From NCBI GenBank assembly GCA_027026255.1, contig JALVOT010000003.1:1-64000 (forward strand): DNA of 64,000 nucleotides, given 5' to 3'. Both the position numbers and the translations under genes were made by a program. Shown piece by piece: positions 9,227 through 15,946 of the stretch (position 1 is the first letter of the stretch; every line of letters begins with the position of its first letter). A model generated the notes under the pieces. It saw nothing but the letters and a program-made list of their open reading frames with translations. It was not told the origin of the DNA and did not search any database. The DNA comes from Caldifarciminota bacterium (GTDB lineage Bacteria; Hydrothermota; Tepidihabitantia; SM23-42).

Positions 9227-11782
9227 ATGAAATTAAGAGAACAGATTAAACATCATCTCCATTCTGGTTGGGTGATTGCCAACCATATATTGGTCTCATT
9301 TCATATCGCCTTTATCTCAAGTCTCCTTTCGATTCCACCTGCACTCTTTGGAACCAAGGTATTAAAATTTGTTTTTTTCAGCCACGATACAATCATCTCG
9401 ACGATTTTCTGGTTTATCAGCTTTCATACCGGAGTGGCGATACATGAAATGGGACATTATCTGCGTGCTGTTAAGATAAACGCCCTCAAAGAAAACCTGC
9501 TTCCTGAGGCGAAAAAGAAGATGACCGCCCCGCTCTTCGTTCGTATTGTCTGGATTATCAAGATGTACTTAACCATTCCCTACGGTAAATTCTCCGGTGT
9601 AAAAAAAGAAGGACTCACCTACTATCCTGAAGCACCATTCAATCTCAGTGTTGCTGCAGCCGGACCATTAATCAGCAGAAAACTGGCGACTGTAATGCTT
9701 CCCATTGCATTTTTCCTCCTTACGATTGGTTTAACCAGTCACCTCTCCATACTCGTCTATTTGGGCCGACTAAGCCTGGGTATCGGCACGGTCGGATTAC
9801 TCGATTTCTTCCTTGCCGACCCCGGTAAATATCGCGAGTACATAAAACGAGAAAGAGAGGCAAAAAAGAAGGCACAGAAGATTGAGGTGAAAGAAGAGGG
9901 CTGGATTGATCGAATGAAACAGGTGAAAGAAACAATGATTAAAAAGCGGATGCAGGAAATCACCCTGCCCAATGGCGAAAAATTACGGGCACCCTGGCAG
10001 TTTAGAAACTGCGGTATGGGCGGCAGGCATACAGAAAAGGAGTATCCAGAAAGTAATATCAGTATGCAGGAGATGATGTTCTTACCCATCTGCGCACGGA
10101 ACTATGAAGAGGCACAGATGATTACCGTCAGCCTTCAAACCCGATTAAAACAGATTATTGAAAAGGCAGAAGGTGCAAGGGTAATGGGCATCGGCCTGGA
10201 AGGTGGACTTGCCCCATATATTGCCAAGGAAACACAGGACCGTATCCCTGAACAGAGGATGTGGCGGATGGCGGTTCAGGCAATCAAGGATATCGGATAT
10301 ACACCGGGTAAGGATGTCGTAATCGGACTTGACCCGGCATTAAGTGAATTGAGCAATGCCTACCGTGAAGAATTCAAACAGAAAGACAGTATCGGAATGT
10401 ATTATTTCTGGAGAGGAGAAGAAAAGGTCGTGATGTCCCGGGACGAACTTGTGGAACTCTACAAAAAGGCCGTGAAGGAAATCCCGATCGTTTCATTAGA
10501 AGACCCATTTGGAGAAGACGATGAGGAAGGCTGGCGCCTTTTAATGGCGGAATTATCTGATAAGATTTTCATAATCGGGGATGATAACATCACCACCAAG
10601 GATTCAGCGATTGAGGAATCCGCCGATAAGAAATTAATCAACACCGCCCTGATAAAGGCAAATCAGATCGGCACCCTATCCGAGACCATACTTGCCGTGC
10701 TTGTTGCTCTGGGTAAGGGACTGGATATCGTAGTATCCCATCGTTCAAAATCACCCAATGATGATATGGAAGCCCAGATTGCACTCTCTGCAAATGCCCT
10801 GGGTCTCAAGGCAGGGGGTGGCGCCAATACTGAAAGGTTATTCAAATATGGTGCAGTAACAAAGATAATGAAGGATATGGAGAAGGTAATCGCCGGAAAA
10901 TTTGAAAAGGCTGACCTCACCCATACAAAAACACTCTTAAATAACCTGGTAATAACCGACATCATCGCCTATGAAGAACCGACCAATGCCGGAATTCCTA
11001 CAGTGGGAATTGAAGTCTATGCCGGTATCCCGGGTTCAAAGGAATACCGTAAACTACTGAGATTCAGTGGTTCAACTCCCCTTGGGACATCAGCTGGCAC
11101 CGGAGAGGCGATTCACTTAATCGACAGTATTATTGAAGCATCGTCCATAACCAAAACCTATCCTGACCTGTTTACTGCCCAGCCTGACAAAACCTACCGA
11201 TTCAAAAAGGGAATCACCGAAAAAGAAATAAAAGAAAAGAATGACCCGCAGTTGAATGAACTATGGAATAAGGTCCAGCGTTATGACGGTAAGGGATGTC
11301 AGAATGCAATCCAGAATGTTCTGAAAATAATTGCACCCCGGTTTATCGGCAAAAAAGTGATAGAATTTAAGAACATATCAGATATCGACCAGAGACTACT
11401 CAGTCTGGAAAGGGAAACCGCAATACAAAGGGGTAAGATTACTCAGCATGCAGATATGGAAAAGATGATTGATATTATGCAGCGCAAGGGAAATCTGGGA
11501 ATGAATGCAATACTCGCGGTCTCATTGGCAATGGCACGTCTCATTGCCCATATCCAGGGTAAGGACCTATGGCAACTCTTAAGAGACGAGATGAAGACAA
11601 TTATTGCAAGACTGATTGTCGCTGAGAATGGAAAGGGTAGTGAACAGGAACTGAAACAACTTACCTTTGAAAAATTGATCGCCGAATTCCGGATGACTGC
11701 GGATAAGCTGAAAAAAGAAGAGAAAAAACTCTATGTCGCATTGCGTGGTCAGACTCCAATCTATTCAAAAAAAGATAAATAA
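9227..11782 (+). CDS. Membrane M50-like domain fused to a circularly permuted enolase
   Basis: 851 residues. Residues 1-200 have several hydrophobic segments, HEMGH at 73-77 and AAGPL at 143-147, as in site-2-protease (M50) proteins; an Asp near 193-198 could be the third zinc ligand. A charged linker (200-245) follows. Residues 247-553 match the enolase TIM barrel with every key residue recognisable: H268, E282, E325, D369, E425, D452/453, K477, the SHRS of 504-507 and K528. Residues 578-800 then match the normally N-terminal enolase capping domain (PTVGIEV near 591, TSAGTGEA at 621-628, LGMNAILAVSLA near 757). Ordinary enolase is cap then barrel, so the order here is reversed. Inferred: a membrane-anchored 2-phosphoglycerate/PEP enzyme or sensor; activity untested. 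GDEGG is changed to GLEGG at 323-327. Confidence 0.85.
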   Translation: MKLREQIKHHLHSGWVIANHILVSFHIAFISSLLSIPPALFGTKVLKFVFFSHDTIISTIFWFISFHTGVAIHEMGHYLRAVKINALKENLLPEAKKKMTAPLFVRIVWIIKMYLTIPYGKFSGVKKEGLTYYPEAPFNLSVAAAGPLISRKLATVMLPIAFFLLTIGLTSHLSILVYLGRLSLGIGTVGLLDFFLADPGKYREYIKREREAKKKAQKIEVKEEGWIDRMKQVKETMIKKRMQEITLPNGEKLRAPWQFRNCGMGGRHTEKEYPESNISMQEMMFLPICARNYEEAQMITVSLQTRLKQIIEKAEGARVMGIGLEGGLAPYIAKETQDRIPEQRMWRMAVQAIKDIGYTPGKDVVIGLDPALSELSNAYREEFKQKDSIGMYYFWRGEEKVVMSRDELVELYKKAVKEIPIVSLEDPFGEDDEEGWRLLMAELSDKIFIIGDDNITTKDSAIEESADKKLINTALIKANQIGTLSETILAVLVALGKGLDIVVSHRSKSPNDDMEAQIALSANALGLKAGGGANTERLFKYGAVTKIMKDMEKVIAGKFEKADLTHTKTLLNNLVITDIIAYEEPTNAGIPTVGIEVYAGIPGSKEYRKLLRFSGSTPLGTSAGTGEAIHLIDSIIEASSITKTYPDLFTAQPDKTYRFKKGITEKEIKEKNDPQLNELWNKVQRYDGKGCQNAIQNVLKIIAPRFIGKKVIEFKNISDIDQRLLSLERETAIQRGKITQHADMEKMIDIMQRKGNLGMNAILAVSLAMARLIAHIQGKDLWQLLRDEMKTIIARLIVAENGKGSEQELKQLTFEKLIAEFRMTADKLKKEEKKLYVALRGQTPIYSKKDK

Positions 11783-11796
11783 ATCAGGAGTAAATT

Positions 11797-12357
11797 ATGG
11801 TCTTTGATGATATGGAAGATACAGAGCGGGGACCATTTTGCAAACCCTATGGCCAGCTCTTTTTTGAAAACTTAGAAAAGATGCCGTCTTTTCAGGTCAT
11901 CGAGGCATACCTTTTCTGCCTTCTGCAAGCCCGAGATCAAATCCAGAAGGCAATCGCAATACTTGAAGGCATTATGAAAAAAGGTTCAGATAAGATAAAA
12001 GAAATAAAGAATCCGATGGACCTTCAGCATCTCTTCGGCAAAGCAACAAACTCACGCGGTGCAATTGAAAAAGAAATTGAACACCTCGCCCAAAACCGAC
12101 GCGAGATCGATAGACTCATTTCCCAGTATTCAGAAAAAGGGATATTTAATATGCCGATTCAGGAATTTATGAGCGCTTTTGACAGCGAATATAAGGTAAA
12201 AGTGGAAAAAAGACATCACGATTCGGATGAATTATATATTACTGAAATTAAAGGTAAGGACCTTGCGGGCTGTGCCGGATTTGAACACCTCAACAAAGTA
12301 ATGACCGGTTATCTGCTCAAAAAATTGATAAAAAAGCAGGACGAGAAAAAGGTCTAA
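11797..12357 (+). CDS. Unrecognised helical protein linked to the permuted enolase gene
   Basis: 186 residues, no family recognised. It starts 14 bases after the fusion gene with AGGAG upstream, so the two are very probably one operon. Predicted mostly alpha-helical with heptad-like charged stretches (about 45-120). There is a C-terminal block containing KRHHD near 148 and a Cys-Ala-Gly near 167, and a lysine-rich tail. No signal peptide or membrane segment. A cytoplasmic partner or regulator of the preceding protein is a guess from position only. Its stop codon interlocks with that of the convergent dehydrogenase gene. Confidence 0.65.
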   Translation: MVFDDMEDTERGPFCKPYGQLFFENLEKMPSFQVIEAYLFCLLQARDQIQKAIAILEGIMKKGSDKIKEIKNPMDLQHLFGKATNSRGAIEKEIEHLAQNRREIDRLISQYSEKGIFNMPIQEFMSAFDSEYKVKVEKRHHDSDELYITEIKGKDLAGCAGFEHLNKVMTGYLLKKLIKKQDEKKV

Positions 12358-13379
12358 TCGTTCGGGAAGATAATCACCTTTAGTGATTGCTCCGCCCGGG
12401 CGACAAGTTCAAATCCCTTTTGAATATCTGTAAGTCCAAACCGATGAGTAATCATTTTATGTACCTGAATCTTTTTTTCACTAATCAGTTTTATCGACTC
12501 ATCAATATCCTGTTTCACCGCCGCATAAGAAAAGACGATTGCTACATTCTTAAAATAGAGTTCAAAAAGGGGTAAAGGAATCCGAACATCCGGCGCGGTC
12601 GGTGCAAAAAGAAGCAGGGTTCCAGCCCGGTCAACGGATTTAAAGGTCTGTTCAAATGCTGATAGTGCGGTTGTGCAGAGGATAACTACATCGGCGAGCC
12701 GATTATCATTAACCTTTTTTATTAAAGCCGGCACATCATCCCGGGCATCAAATACATAATCAGCACCAAATTTTTTTGCAAGTTCCCGACGATATGGATT
12801 GATATCAGTAGCGATAATCCTTGCAGCCCCCTTTGCCCGGGCAGCCTGGATATGGAGGATACCTGAAATCCCGGAGCCGATAATAACCACCGTATCTTCA
12901 GGTTTTATATGGGCGAACCGCTGCCCCCTTACCACACAACCCAGGGGTTCAATAAATGTTCCCTCTTCATAGGAAACCTCATCCGGTAAAAGATATGTCC
13001 CTTTTTTTACATTAATCTCAGGAACCCTGATAAACTGGGCAAAACCACCCGGATCAAAATTTGTTGAATGGAGGGTATCACAGACTGTTTGATAACCCTT
13101 TTTACAGTAATAACATTCATCACAGGGAACATGATGGGAGACAAATACCCGATCCCCAATCTTATAGTCGGTTATATCTTCCCCTTTTTCCACAATCTCC
13201 CCGGCAATCTCATGACCCAATACCCTTGGCGCCCGTTTAATCCGATACCACTCCATAACATCACTTCCACAGATACCGCTTGCCCAAACCTTGACAAGCA
13301 ACTCATTCGGACCTATTTTGGGTTTTGGAACCTCCTCAACCCTTACATCCTTATTATTGTAGTATACCCCGGCGAGCAA
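12354..13379 (-). CDS. Zinc-dependent medium-chain alcohol/polyol dehydrogenase
   Basis: 341 residues of the MDR family (sorbitol/threonine dehydrogenase-like). Catalytic zinc ligands are Cys37 (GICGSD) and His56-Glu57 (LGHEI); structural zinc is held by Cys86, 89, 92 and 100. The NAD(P)-binding motif GSGISG is at 168-173, with Asp192 at the end of the second strand favouring NAD. The probable start is TTG at 13379, two bases after the stop of the lsrF-like gene, with AAGG upstream. Co-transcription with that gene suggests it handles a sugar or polyol phosphate linked to the thiolase/aldolase step. Exact substrate unknown. Confidence 0.88.
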   Translation of the reverse strand: MLAGVYYNNKDVRVEEVPKPKIGPNELLVKVWASGICGSDVMEWYRIKRAPRVLGHEIAGEIVEKGEDITDYKIGDRVFVSHHVPCDECYYCKKGYQTVCDTLHSTNFDPGGFAQFIRVPEINVKKGTYLLPDEVSYEEGTFIEPLGCVVRGQRFAHIKPEDTVVIIGSGISGILHIQAARAKGAARIIATDINPYRRELAKKFGADYVFDARDDVPALIKKVNDNRLADVVILCTTALSAFEQTFKSVDRAGTLLLFAPTAPDVRIPLPLFELYFKNVAIVFSYAAVKQDIDESIKLISEKKIQVHKMITHRFGLTDIQKGFELVARAEQSLKVIIFPND

Positions 13380-13381
13380 TT

Positions 13382-14173
13382 TTATACCTTACCCTGTTTT
13401 TCTGCCTCATATATCCTGTAGGCCTCATCCACAGATGCCTGATTATGGACAATGGCACGCACCGCCTTTATCATCCCGACCGGCGAATCGGATTGAAAGA
13501 TATTTCTACCCATATCCACACCTGAGGCACCATTAGAAACTGCATTATATGCCAGCTGCAGTGCATCTTTTTCAGCAATCTTCTTTCCTCCGGCAATTAC
13601 GACCGGTACCGGACAGGTATCAACAACCCTTTTAAAATCCTCACAATAATAAGTTTTGACAAAATGGGCACCCAGTTCGGCAGCAATCCGACAGCAGAGT
13701 GACAGATACTTGGCATCCCGTGCCATATCTCTGCCCACTGCAGTCACCGCAAGGACAGCGATGCCGTATTCATTTGCCTGATTAACCAGTTCGGAAAGTG
13801 CAAGCAGGGTCTGCTGTTCATAGGGCGAACCGACAAAGATCGAAAGTGCCACTGCACAGACATTAAGCCTTATCGCCTCTTTGATACTTGTAGTAATACC
13901 CTCATTGGAAAGCTCCGGACTGAGGATACTTGTCCCTCCAGATACACGCAGGACAATCGGAATAGCGAATTTTGCAGAAACCGAATTCCTCAATACACCG
14001 CGCGTCAGCATCAATGAATCTGCATAAGGCAATAAAGGTTCAATAGTCTTTTTTGGATTTTCCAGACCCGTAGTAGGACCAAGAAAATAGCCATGGTCAA
14101 CCGCAAGCATCACGGTCCGACCGGTATCCGGCTTAATAATTCTTGAAAGCCGATTTTCCAATCCCCAATCCAT
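13382..14173 (-). CDS. lsrF: LsrF-like class I aldolase/thiolase
   Basis: 263 residues from the ATG at 14173, chosen because AAAGGAG lies 5 bases upstream. It closely follows the LsrF pattern: DWGLENRLSRI at the N-terminus, LAVDHGYFLGPTTGLE at 23-38, the Schiff-base lysine in VKTYY (Lys173), and GASGVDMGRNIFQS at 215-228. LsrF transfers an acetyl group from the phosphorylated AI-2 product to CoA; near relatives act as fructose-bisphosphate or ADH-synthase aldolases. No lsrK, lsrG or AI-2 transporter is present, so the real substrate may be another keto-sugar phosphate. It is followed by a zinc dehydrogenase in the same operon. Confidence 0.85.
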   Translation of the reverse strand: MDWGLENRLSRIIKPDTGRTVMLAVDHGYFLGPTTGLENPKKTIEPLLPYADSLMLTRGVLRNSVSAKFAIPIVLRVSGGTSILSPELSNEGITTSIKEAIRLNVCAVALSIFVGSPYEQQTLLALSELVNQANEYGIAVLAVTAVGRDMARDAKYLSLCCRIAAELGAHFVKTYYCEDFKRVVDTCPVPVVIAGGKKIAEKDALQLAYNAVSNGASGVDMGRNIFQSDSPVGMIKAVRAIVHNQASVDEAYRIYEAEKQGKV

Positions 14174-14203
14174 AATCGCTCCTTTCATTATTAAATTTTT
14201 ATA

Positions 14204-14231
14204 AGAATATTCAAAATTCAAACAATGTCAA
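14204..14231 (-). promoter_or_regulatory. Promoter of the lsrF-like operon
   Basis: Minus strand: TTGACA (14231-14226), 16-bp spacer, TATTCT (14209-14204), then about 30 bases of leader carrying AAAGGAG before the start at 14173. Confidence 0.65.
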
Positions 14232-14248
14232 CAAACCATTTACGAGTA

Positions 14249-14276
14249 TTGACAATAGTAATAATTTCATTATGCT
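14249..14276 (+). promoter_or_regulatory. Leaderless-type promoter of the M48 protease gene
   Basis: TTGACA (14249-14254), 16-bp spacer, TATGCT (14271-14276), 5 bases to the ATG at 14282. It lies inside the longest possible frame (from 14225) and thereby rules out that upstream start. Confidence 0.65.
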
Positions 14277-14281
14277 TGAAT

Positions 14282-15946
14282 ATGCCGGAATCGCCGAAGA
14301 CCTTCTGGGAGATAAAAAAAGAAAAGACAATAAATATTTATATCCTGTTCTTTTTTCTGATAATCCTGTACTTCCTGCCGATATTTTTAATCTGGAATCT
14401 GCTAAAAATTATTTTTTATTTCAATCTCTTTTTACGCAACTCTCAGCCAAGTTTCAAAATTTTTGACACAAGTCTTATCTATATCTTTATTATCGCCGGA
14501 ATATTTGCAATAATCCACTGGTATAAATCCAACCGGAATGTTGTAGGAAAGGTTCTCCAGCTTCTGAGTGCAAGGCTGCCCGATAAAAATGATGAGTACC
14601 ATTATCAATTTCAGAACATTGTGGACGAGATTGAAACCGCAGCAGGTGGGATTAAGGTTGAACGGTATATCATTCCAACCGGGGCGATGAATGCCTTTGC
14701 CTTAGCCGATATCGGTAAACGCCGGGTAATCGGCATCACCGAAGGACTGCTCTCACGCTTGAACCGTGCTGAGGTCCAGTCGGTTGTTGCCCATGAAATG
14801 GCGCATATCATCTCCAATGATTCTGTGGTGACAACTACCGCCTGTTCTCTATTCAGTCTGTATAATGAATCTATGTATCAATTGAGCAAAGGGTTGGTTA
14901 AAAAATCATCAATGCGTCAGGACCGCTATTTGCCGATCCGGTCTCCGATGATTTCCAACCCCGGATTAATCGGCATACCGGTTATTATCATTCTATTTAT
15001 TACGAATATACTGAGCCAATTATTAAATATGTTTATCTCCAGAGAACGTGAATACCGTGCTGATGCAGCAGCAGTAGAACTGACCCGGGAACCGCTAAGT
15101 CTGGCAAGCGCCCTCTACAAAATGGGCATACACTGGCGCGGCACCGGACTGGTCGGCGACCGACTCGCCCCGATCTTTATTATCAATCCGAAATTCAGTC
15201 AGCTGGATGAGACCGAGGGCATCATCCCCACCCTGTTTTCAACCCATCCACCGTTAATCAAAAGACTTCAGGTTCTTCTCAATATGGGACATACCGATAT
15301 CTCTGAAATCGCCCACAGGATAAAGGAGAAGATAAAGATTGAGCCGGAAACCAGGACGGAAGGTCCTTTATTCTTTATAAAAAAGGCAGAAGAATGGCTC
15401 GGCCCATATACCATACTACAATTACAGACCATCGACGACCTGAATTTAGAAACTGAATTGAAAGCGGCGCAAAATGGAAATATCATAAAGGCAAAAAATA
15501 TGCCTGAGCTTGCCCATTTCTTTGAACTCAAACAGAAACCGCTCGGTCAAATCAGGCGCATCTGCCCGGATTGTCGACAATGGCTAATACCACAAAGTTA
15601 TGAAGGGCTTTATGTCTGGCGTTGTGCGTATTGCAATGGCATTGCGGTTGAAGAAGAAAAACTGCCCAGGATTATCGTCCGTAAGGAAAAGGGATTTACT
15701 GAAGATGTTGTAAGACTTGCAAAACTGCTGCGGGCTGATGCAAAGAAAAAGTATCCCCATTTCAATCTGCTTCTTGATATGTCTCATCCCCGCGCCTGTC
15801 CAAAATGTGGTAAACCAATGATACACAAATTCTACAGTTATGCCTATCATATTGAGATTGACGAATGCAGGGCCTGTAAGATAATCTGGTTTGATGCAAA
15901 AGAGCTGGAACTACTGCAGTGTTTGATTGAAATAGAAGGTGAATAA
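14282..15946 (+). CDS. HtpX-like M48 membrane metalloprotease with C-terminal zinc ribbons
   Basis: 554 residues from the ATG 5 bases after the -10 box. Two hydrophobic segments (about 20-45 and 60-80) precede an M48 peptidase domain. The zinc/catalytic motif HEMAH is at 171-175, the downstream Glu ligand lies in REREYRAD, and STHPP is near 320. A further hydrophobic stretch lies between. The C-terminal 120 residues add something unusual: CPDC...CAYC and CPKCG...CRAC-IWFD, the last resembling the zf-TFIIB/'IWFDAGEL' ribbon. HtpX-type proteases degrade misfolded membrane proteins. The ribbons may recognise substrates or partners, which is inference. It ends 10 bases from the convergent polA. 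Confidence 0.88.
   Translation: MPESPKTFWEIKKEKTINIYILFFFLIILYFLPIFLIWNLLKIIFYFNLFLRNSQPSFKIFDTSLIYIFIIAGIFAIIHWYKSNRNVVGKVLQLLSARLPDKNDEYHYQFQNIVDEIETAAGGIKVERYIIPTGAMNAFALADIGKRRVIGITEGLLSRLNRAEVQSVVAHEMAHIISNDSVVTTTACSLFSLYNESMYQLSKGLVKKSSMRQDRYLPIRSPMISNPGLIGIPVIIILFITNILSQLLNMFISREREYRADAAAVELTREPLSLASALYKMGIHWRGTGLVGDRLAPIFIINPKFSQLDETEGIIPTLFSTHPPLIKRLQVLLNMGHTDISEIAHRIKEKIKIEPETRTEGPLFFIKKAEEWLGPYTILQLQTIDDLNLETELKAAQNGNIIKAKNMPELAHFFELKQKPLGQIRRICPDCRQWLIPQSYEGLYVWRCAYCNGIAVEEEKLPRIIVRKEKGFTEDVVRLAKLLRADAKKKYPHFNLLLDMSHPRACPKCGKPMIHKFYSYAYHIEIDECRACKIIWFDAKELELLQCLIEIEGE

Follow-up and report, generated by a model that had tools for sequence, protein, structure and literature searches.

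A circularly permuted enolase fused to an M50-like membrane domain in candidate WOR-3/Stahlbacteria genomes

A single uninterrupted reading frame of 851 codons, running from ATG through stop at positions 9227-11782 (+ strand) of the window, the whole stretch of 64,000 nucleotides that was analysed, joins an M50-like membrane domain to an enolase in which the TIM barrel precedes the capping domain. Comparison of sequences suggests that the product is probably a working permuted enolase, tethered at the membrane by an M50/S2P-like domain that carries a metal-ligand set, and that it serves as the housekeeping enolase where the ordinary eno gene has been lost. A preliminary description of this DNA had already read the frame as a multi-helix domain with a HEMGH motif joined to an enolase, and the open ATG-to-stop frame was confirmed. 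The parts of the gene and its downstream neighbour are as follows.

9227..11782, + strand: whole gene, M50-like membrane domain and circularly permuted enolase, 851 aa; one frame in 16 genomes
9227..9826, + strand: membrane domain, residues 1-200, four predicted TM helices; family-alignment hydropathy, AlphaFold2 helices, sub-threshold Pfam M50 match
9443..9457, + strand: HEMGH, residues 73-77, at the cytosolic end of predicted TM2; H73, E74 and H77 invariant
9815..9826, + strand: ADPG, residues 197-200, at the end of TM4, with candidate third zinc ligand D198; D198 invariant, role inferred from S2P proteases (SpoIVFB D137, PMC11486902)
9827..9961, + strand: linker, residues 201-245, positively charged and largely helical; family hydropathy, AlphaFold2
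9962..10891, + strand: enolase TIM barrel, residues 246-555; Pfam Enolase_C, hhalign, residue map, Foldseek matches to enolases
10892..10945, + strand: permutation joint, residues 556-573; alignment with ordinary enolases
10946..11626, + strand: enolase cap, residues 574-800, with the S622 loop and two insertions; Pfam Enolase_N 52.1 bits, hhalign E 3e-18
11627..11779, + strand: C-terminal tail, residues 801-851, of varying length with a conserved LYxxxR; family alignment
11797..12357, + strand: conserved 186-aa gene of unknown family; 3' of eno in G002, G003, G009 and G012, and 3' of the fusion in G000 (the source genome of the window) and G015

Both parts of the enolase fold can be recognised in this protein. 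Pfam Enolase_C matches residues 263-552 (E 1.7e-52), and Enolase_N reaches E 1e-13 and 52.1 bits against a cut-off of 35, its best stretch being residues 747-785. In profile-profile alignment (hhalign) with a reference set of 26 ordinary enolases, also used for comparing residues, family residues 245-565 cover the barrel (ordinary-enolase columns 146-419, E 2e-50) and residues 570-812 cover the whole cap (columns 5-141, E 3e-18). As barrel and cap are both fully covered, the enolase is, on these alignments, complete and circularly permuted: the barrel (246-555) lies before the cap (574-800), instead of the cap-then-barrel order of the enolase family, and the cut falls within the normal cap-barrel linker. 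The permutation joint of about 18 residues links the normal C-terminus of the barrel to the normal N-terminus of the cap. This order had been proposed from the sequence alone, with the match of residues 578-800 to the cap named as one of the points on which it hung, and the Pfam and profile alignments agree with it on both counts. The displaced cap retains the serine loop of E. coli S42, here around an invariant S622, and the LGxNA motif, and it carries insertions relative to ordinary caps.

The enolase is nevertheless a divergent one, with a barrel identity of about 35% to ordinary enolases. Against the equivalog model TIGR01060, for which the cut-off is 300 bits, the protein scores 226.5 bits as it stands and only 229.6 bits after the normal order is restored. 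Hence the permuted order can be rejected as the sole cause of the low score, which reflects divergence and not order alone. The full-length AlphaFold2 model (11 sequences; mean pLDDT 70, pTM 0.67) contains the expected barrel and cap elements. The best PDB matches listed by Foldseek for this model are all enolases, and their alignments span about 300 columns, as a match to the barrel would; since the program follows the order of the sequence, it cannot report the permuted whole.

Searches covered 61 genomes, the source and its relatives, and then 147 genomes of the phylum (candidate WOR-3/Stahlbacteria). The membrane domain is present in 19 of the 147, spread over five families, and wherever the gene is complete it is joined to the enolase; among the 147 genomes neither a membrane domain without enolase nor separate M50 relatives hinting at an ancestral role were found. 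The full fusion occupies a single frame in 16 genomes, the proteins from the others being 54-70% identical to that of the window, while in G026, G011 and G080 it is interrupted by contig ends. This distribution bears on the suspicion that an assembly join or a frameshift has merged two separate genes, possibly derived from a tandem eno duplication. The idea was raised by the eno gene that neighbours the fusion in some genomes, and no support for it was found; the same one-frame order recurs in 16 separately assembled genomes of five families at identities down to 54%, with the junction between M50-like domain and barrel, where the preliminary description had looked for a possible merger, always inside the frame. 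An artefact of this kind is so improbable that it was rejected. The named carrier records belong to candidate division WOR-3 and Candidatus Stahlbacteria, and a scan of genome collections, which reaches close relatives only, likewise returned WOR-3/Stahlbacteria records alone. Internal TGA codons flagged in G023 and G024 proved to be terminal stops only, with no recoding.

The catalytic and metal-binding residues of enolase are well established, and each has a counterpart in the fusion. Counting E. coli enolase with its start methionine, S42 of the cap loop corresponds to S622, H159 to H268, E168 to E282, E209 to E325, D246 to D369, E290 to E425, D317 to D452, K342 to K477, H370, R371 and S372 to H505, R506 and S507, and K393 to K528. 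All of these catalytic, metal-binding and phosphate-binding residues are identical to those of E. coli and invariant in the 16 full-length fusions, and the barrel positions assigned earlier without alignment (H268, E282, E325, D369, E425, D452, K477, H505-R506-S507 and K528) were correct. Close to the active site there are also conserved changes: the residue preceding E325 (E. coli E209) is Leu or Thr in the fusions against Asp in 26 of 26 ordinary enolases, and the SHRSGETED of ordinary enolases reads SHRSKSP..D throughout the fusions. The gene is under purifying selection, with dN/dS of about 0.03-0.14 for the membrane domain and about 0.04-0.07 for the barrel among pairs without synonymous saturation. 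The invariant active site and low dN/dS together reject a decayed enolase.

Since the S622 loop is conserved and the catalytic set complete, the C-terminal cap may be envisaged as folding back over the mouth of the barrel, bringing the S622 loop with it and rebuilding the normal active site; the fusion would then catalyse the interconversion of 2-phosphoglycerate and PEP. A separate feature appears in two pairs of fusion genes, where the cap has diverged far less than the barrel at synonymous sites (pS 0.08 against 0.38 for G012/G002, and 0.16 against 0.50 for G079/G078), as if the 3' part of the gene had recombined or were constrained at the DNA level.

An association is seen between the fusion and the loss of ordinary eno, which is found above cut-off in 127 of the 147 phylum genomes. 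The preliminary description had advised looking for a second, ordinary eno, and in the source genome (99.1% complete) neither protein nor family searches detect another enolase or Enolase_C protein. Among the 19 carriers, an ordinary eno occurs in eight, in every case immediately 3' of the fusion (G002, G003, G004, G009, G011, G012, G137 and G138), and in eleven it was not found (G000, G015, G023-G027, G077-G079 and the 77%-complete draft G080). With a quality filter of at least 90% completeness and no more than 5% contamination, ordinary eno is absent from 7 of the 13 carriers that pass and from 1 of the 80 non-carriers (Fisher p 1.4e-6, not corrected for kinship). Mapped onto the fusion tree, the presence of eno requires four changes, of which well-supported branches force three, and if both genes were ancestral these changes are losses. 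The gene order is fusion, eno, 186-aa gene in G002, G003, G009 and G012, and fusion, 186-aa gene in G000 and G015. Upstream of the 186-aa gene in G015 there is a match to the last ~19 residues of eno (68-74% identity), and this remnant, running into the 186-aa gene, has 92% DNA identity to G012 and G002. To judge from these matches it is a deletion scar, the 186-aa gene apparently marks the site of eno loss, and ordinary eno looks to have been lost repeatedly among carriers.

The pathway on either side of the missing enzyme is largely retained. The PPDK/PEP synthase family is kept in all nine eno-less carriers tested, and a PF01676 enzyme, of a family to which phosphoglycerate mutases belong, in eight of the nine; pathway completeness in the source genome was judged from family searches. 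With these enzymes kept and eno gone, the enolase step seems to be needed, and the fusion is the only candidate seen. Furthermore, as it is the only enolase left in several species, it probably does the job of the ordinary enzyme, at the membrane. In the eno-less lineages, including the source genome, the fusion would thus serve as the housekeeping enzyme for the step that links phosphoglycerate mutase to PPDK. Of the roles floated in the preliminary description, the membrane-tethered glycolytic enzyme is accordingly the one that the invariant active site, purifying selection and eno replacement support well, and the replacement of eno in several lineages likewise strengthens its view that this is no decayed copy.

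The phylogeny does leave room for a change of function. The fusion enolases group in one clade (support 100/100), whose stem measures about 3.6 changes per site and far exceeds every branch in the sample of ordinary enolases, so the activity of the fusion could have shifted. The protein might then be an enolase-superfamily enzyme that has taken up another substrate, the eno-less genomes making PEP by another route or with an unrecognised enolase. The very long stem, the conserved changes beside the active site (Asp to Leu or Thr before E325, SGET to SKSP), the score under the TIGR01060 equivalog cut-off and the near-complete genome G098, which lacks the fusion and yet has no detected enolase, would all suit such a shift; it is made unlikely by the invariance of every catalytic, metal- and phosphate-binding residue, the cap serine included, by the concentration of ordinary-eno absence in carriers, and by a source genome with no further Enolase_C protein. 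As to G098 itself, it belongs to family f22 of the same phylum and is 95% complete, and searches of it yielded no enolase in either the ordinary or the fused form.

The length of this stem prevents the tree from showing how the permuted enolase arose. An origin by tandem duplication of a neighbouring eno is plausible on grounds of adjacency, since duplication and fusion followed by partial loss would produce the head-to-tail arrangement with eno that is seen in two distant families.

For the membrane domain, a family-averaged hydropathy profile predicts four TM helices, at about residues 14-34, 53-80, 150-171 and 174-196. The TM2-TM3 loop contains 10 K/R residues and the tail after TM4 contains 16, and because both segments are positively charged the enolase is predicted to be cytosolic. 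HEMGH (73-77) is placed at the inner end of TM2 and D198 at that of TM4, and H73, E74, H77 and D198 are invariant in 18 of 18 membrane-domain sequences. The HExxH in a transmembrane helix that characterises M50 is therefore present, at the end of predicted TM2, with an invariant candidate third zinc ligand that lies in ADPG rather than LDG or NPDG. Pfam Peptidase_M50 (PF02163) matches the window protein with E 0.0019 and 18 bits against a cut-off of 27.2, and is weak in all members scanned, the best among the scores reported being 25.6 bits against that cut-off. The AlphaFold2 model of the domain (18 similar sequences) has a pLDDT of 73; a Foldseek search of it against the PDB gave no significant match, a PDB profile search identified no relative, and an NCBIfam search produced no match. 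The M50 assignment made from the motif rests on motif, topology and a consistent Pfam match; that match stays sub-threshold, and Foldseek offers nothing to confirm it. The name 'M50-like' is used here because the Pfam match is sub-threshold, the PDB and Foldseek searches give no relative and there are four helices, not six.

The domain is probably still a metalloprotease or the direct derivative of one, to judge from its conserved residues, and would keep the metal ligands H73, H77 and D198 together with the general base E74. It may instead descend from an M50-like protein and serve as an anchor only, without proteolysis, the enolase doing all the work. The sub-threshold match, the four helices in place of six and the lack of a structural match make this a possibility to be taken seriously, if still a doubtful one, given that H73, E74, H77 and D198 are invariant, that dN/dS of the domain is low and that a mere anchor has no need of an intact metalloprotease motif. 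This alternative is a functional sub-case of the preferred reading, and the likelihoods given to the alternatives overlap.

If the domain does cleave, its activity could be coupled to the enolase in two ways. The preliminary description had suggested a sensor or a protease with an output linked to glycolysis, roles that stay conjectural here. The permuted enolase may be mainly a regulatory domain that binds 2-PG and PEP, comparable to the ligand-binding role that CBS domains may play in other S2P proteases; it would be a metabolic sensor in which occupancy of the site gates intramembrane cleavage of a membrane substrate. Such a sensor would fit the HExxH and D198 invariant in 18 of 18 sequences, the succession of TM domain, linker and cytosolic ligand-binding domain found also in CBS-bearing S2P proteases (PMC11486902), an M48 peptidase gene near the fusion in seven genomes, and the ordinary eno that adjoins the fusion in eight carriers and could supply the metabolic enzyme there. 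Pure binding, on the other hand, would not require the entire catalytic set that is kept, ordinary eno seems to have been lost repeatedly in carriers, and the M50 membership of the domain is sub-threshold; this explanation is regarded as improbable. More speculatively, and in keeping with the S2P layout, one polypeptide might be both glycolytic enolase and intramembrane metalloprotease, the cap-loop cycle on 2-PG and PEP gating the protease, such that glycolytic flux would control proteolysis of a membrane or regulatory protein; this is offered tentatively. The most economical reading remains a housekeeping enolase fixed to the membrane, with the M50/S2P-like N-terminal domain holding it at the cytosolic face of the inner membrane.

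Several genes recur around the locus. An M48 peptidase whose C-terminus bears a TFIIB-type zinc ribbon (window 14225-15946, + strand) lies near the fusion in seven genomes, the others being G002, G012, G015, G023, G024 and G025, and it is directly downstream in the last three. The 186-aa protein (window 11797-12357, + strand) has no Pfam match and is well conserved, 3' of eno or of the fusion in six genomes. Next to the enolase locus, both in the window (12354-14221, - strand) and in G004 (locus L102, 4152-6106), are genes for a zinc alcohol dehydrogenase and a DeoC/LacD-family aldolase.

Enolase is among the most conserved and universal of enzymes. The permuted form appears to have displaced the normal eno repeatedly, which amounts to a natural complementation experiment, and the fusion gives a direct test of whether an enzyme built of TIM barrel and cap can be permuted without loss of function. 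A further question is why a step of glycolysis should be located at the membrane beside an S2P-type metal site. Furthermore, the fusion can mislead pathway annotation: as equivalog models score it below the enolase cut-off, the enolase step may be recorded as absent from genomes like that of the source.

Enolase and M50-like domains are both of known kinds; it is the natural permuted enolase, the membrane-integral enolase and the fusion for which no description was found. The preliminary description knew of no protein with this layout, and a literature search likewise found no paper describing an enolase that is permuted, membrane-integral or fused to a protease-like domain; enolase is absent from the main text of a 2025 survey of 181 WOR-3 genomes (PMC12542636). 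Like ordinary enolase (TIGR01060; PF03952 and PF00113), the fusion has a complete cap and barrel with all catalytic residues; unlike it, the fusion has the barrel before the cap, a membrane domain, insertions in the cap, conserved changes near the active site, a very long branch and a score below the cut-off.

A GAPDH-enolase fusion occurs in dinoflagellates. TPI-GAPDH is another glycolytic fusion protein of eukaryotes (PMC3527533). The present protein resembles these in combining a glycolytic enzyme with another domain and in a possible role of placing a reaction in the cell, but they are soluble enzymes of normal domain order, with neither a protease-like membrane partner nor a permuted enolase.

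Among the M50B or site-2 proteases, SpoIVFB has H43, H47 and D137 as its zinc ligands. Between TM2 and TM3 it has a re-entrant loop, positioned in front of HExxH, and its C-terminal CBS domain is reached through a linker (PMC11486902). The fusion differs from this group in having four predicted TM helices against six, ADPG against NPDG or LDG, a Pfam match below the cut-off, no Foldseek match, and an enolase against CBS. It shares with SpoIVFB and mjS2P the HExxH in TM2, an Asp at TM4, a long TM2-TM3 loop, a GP motif in TM3 and a linker to a C-terminal cytosolic domain, such that the permuted enolase would occupy the position that the cytosolic CBS domain holds in S2P proteases such as SpoIVFB.
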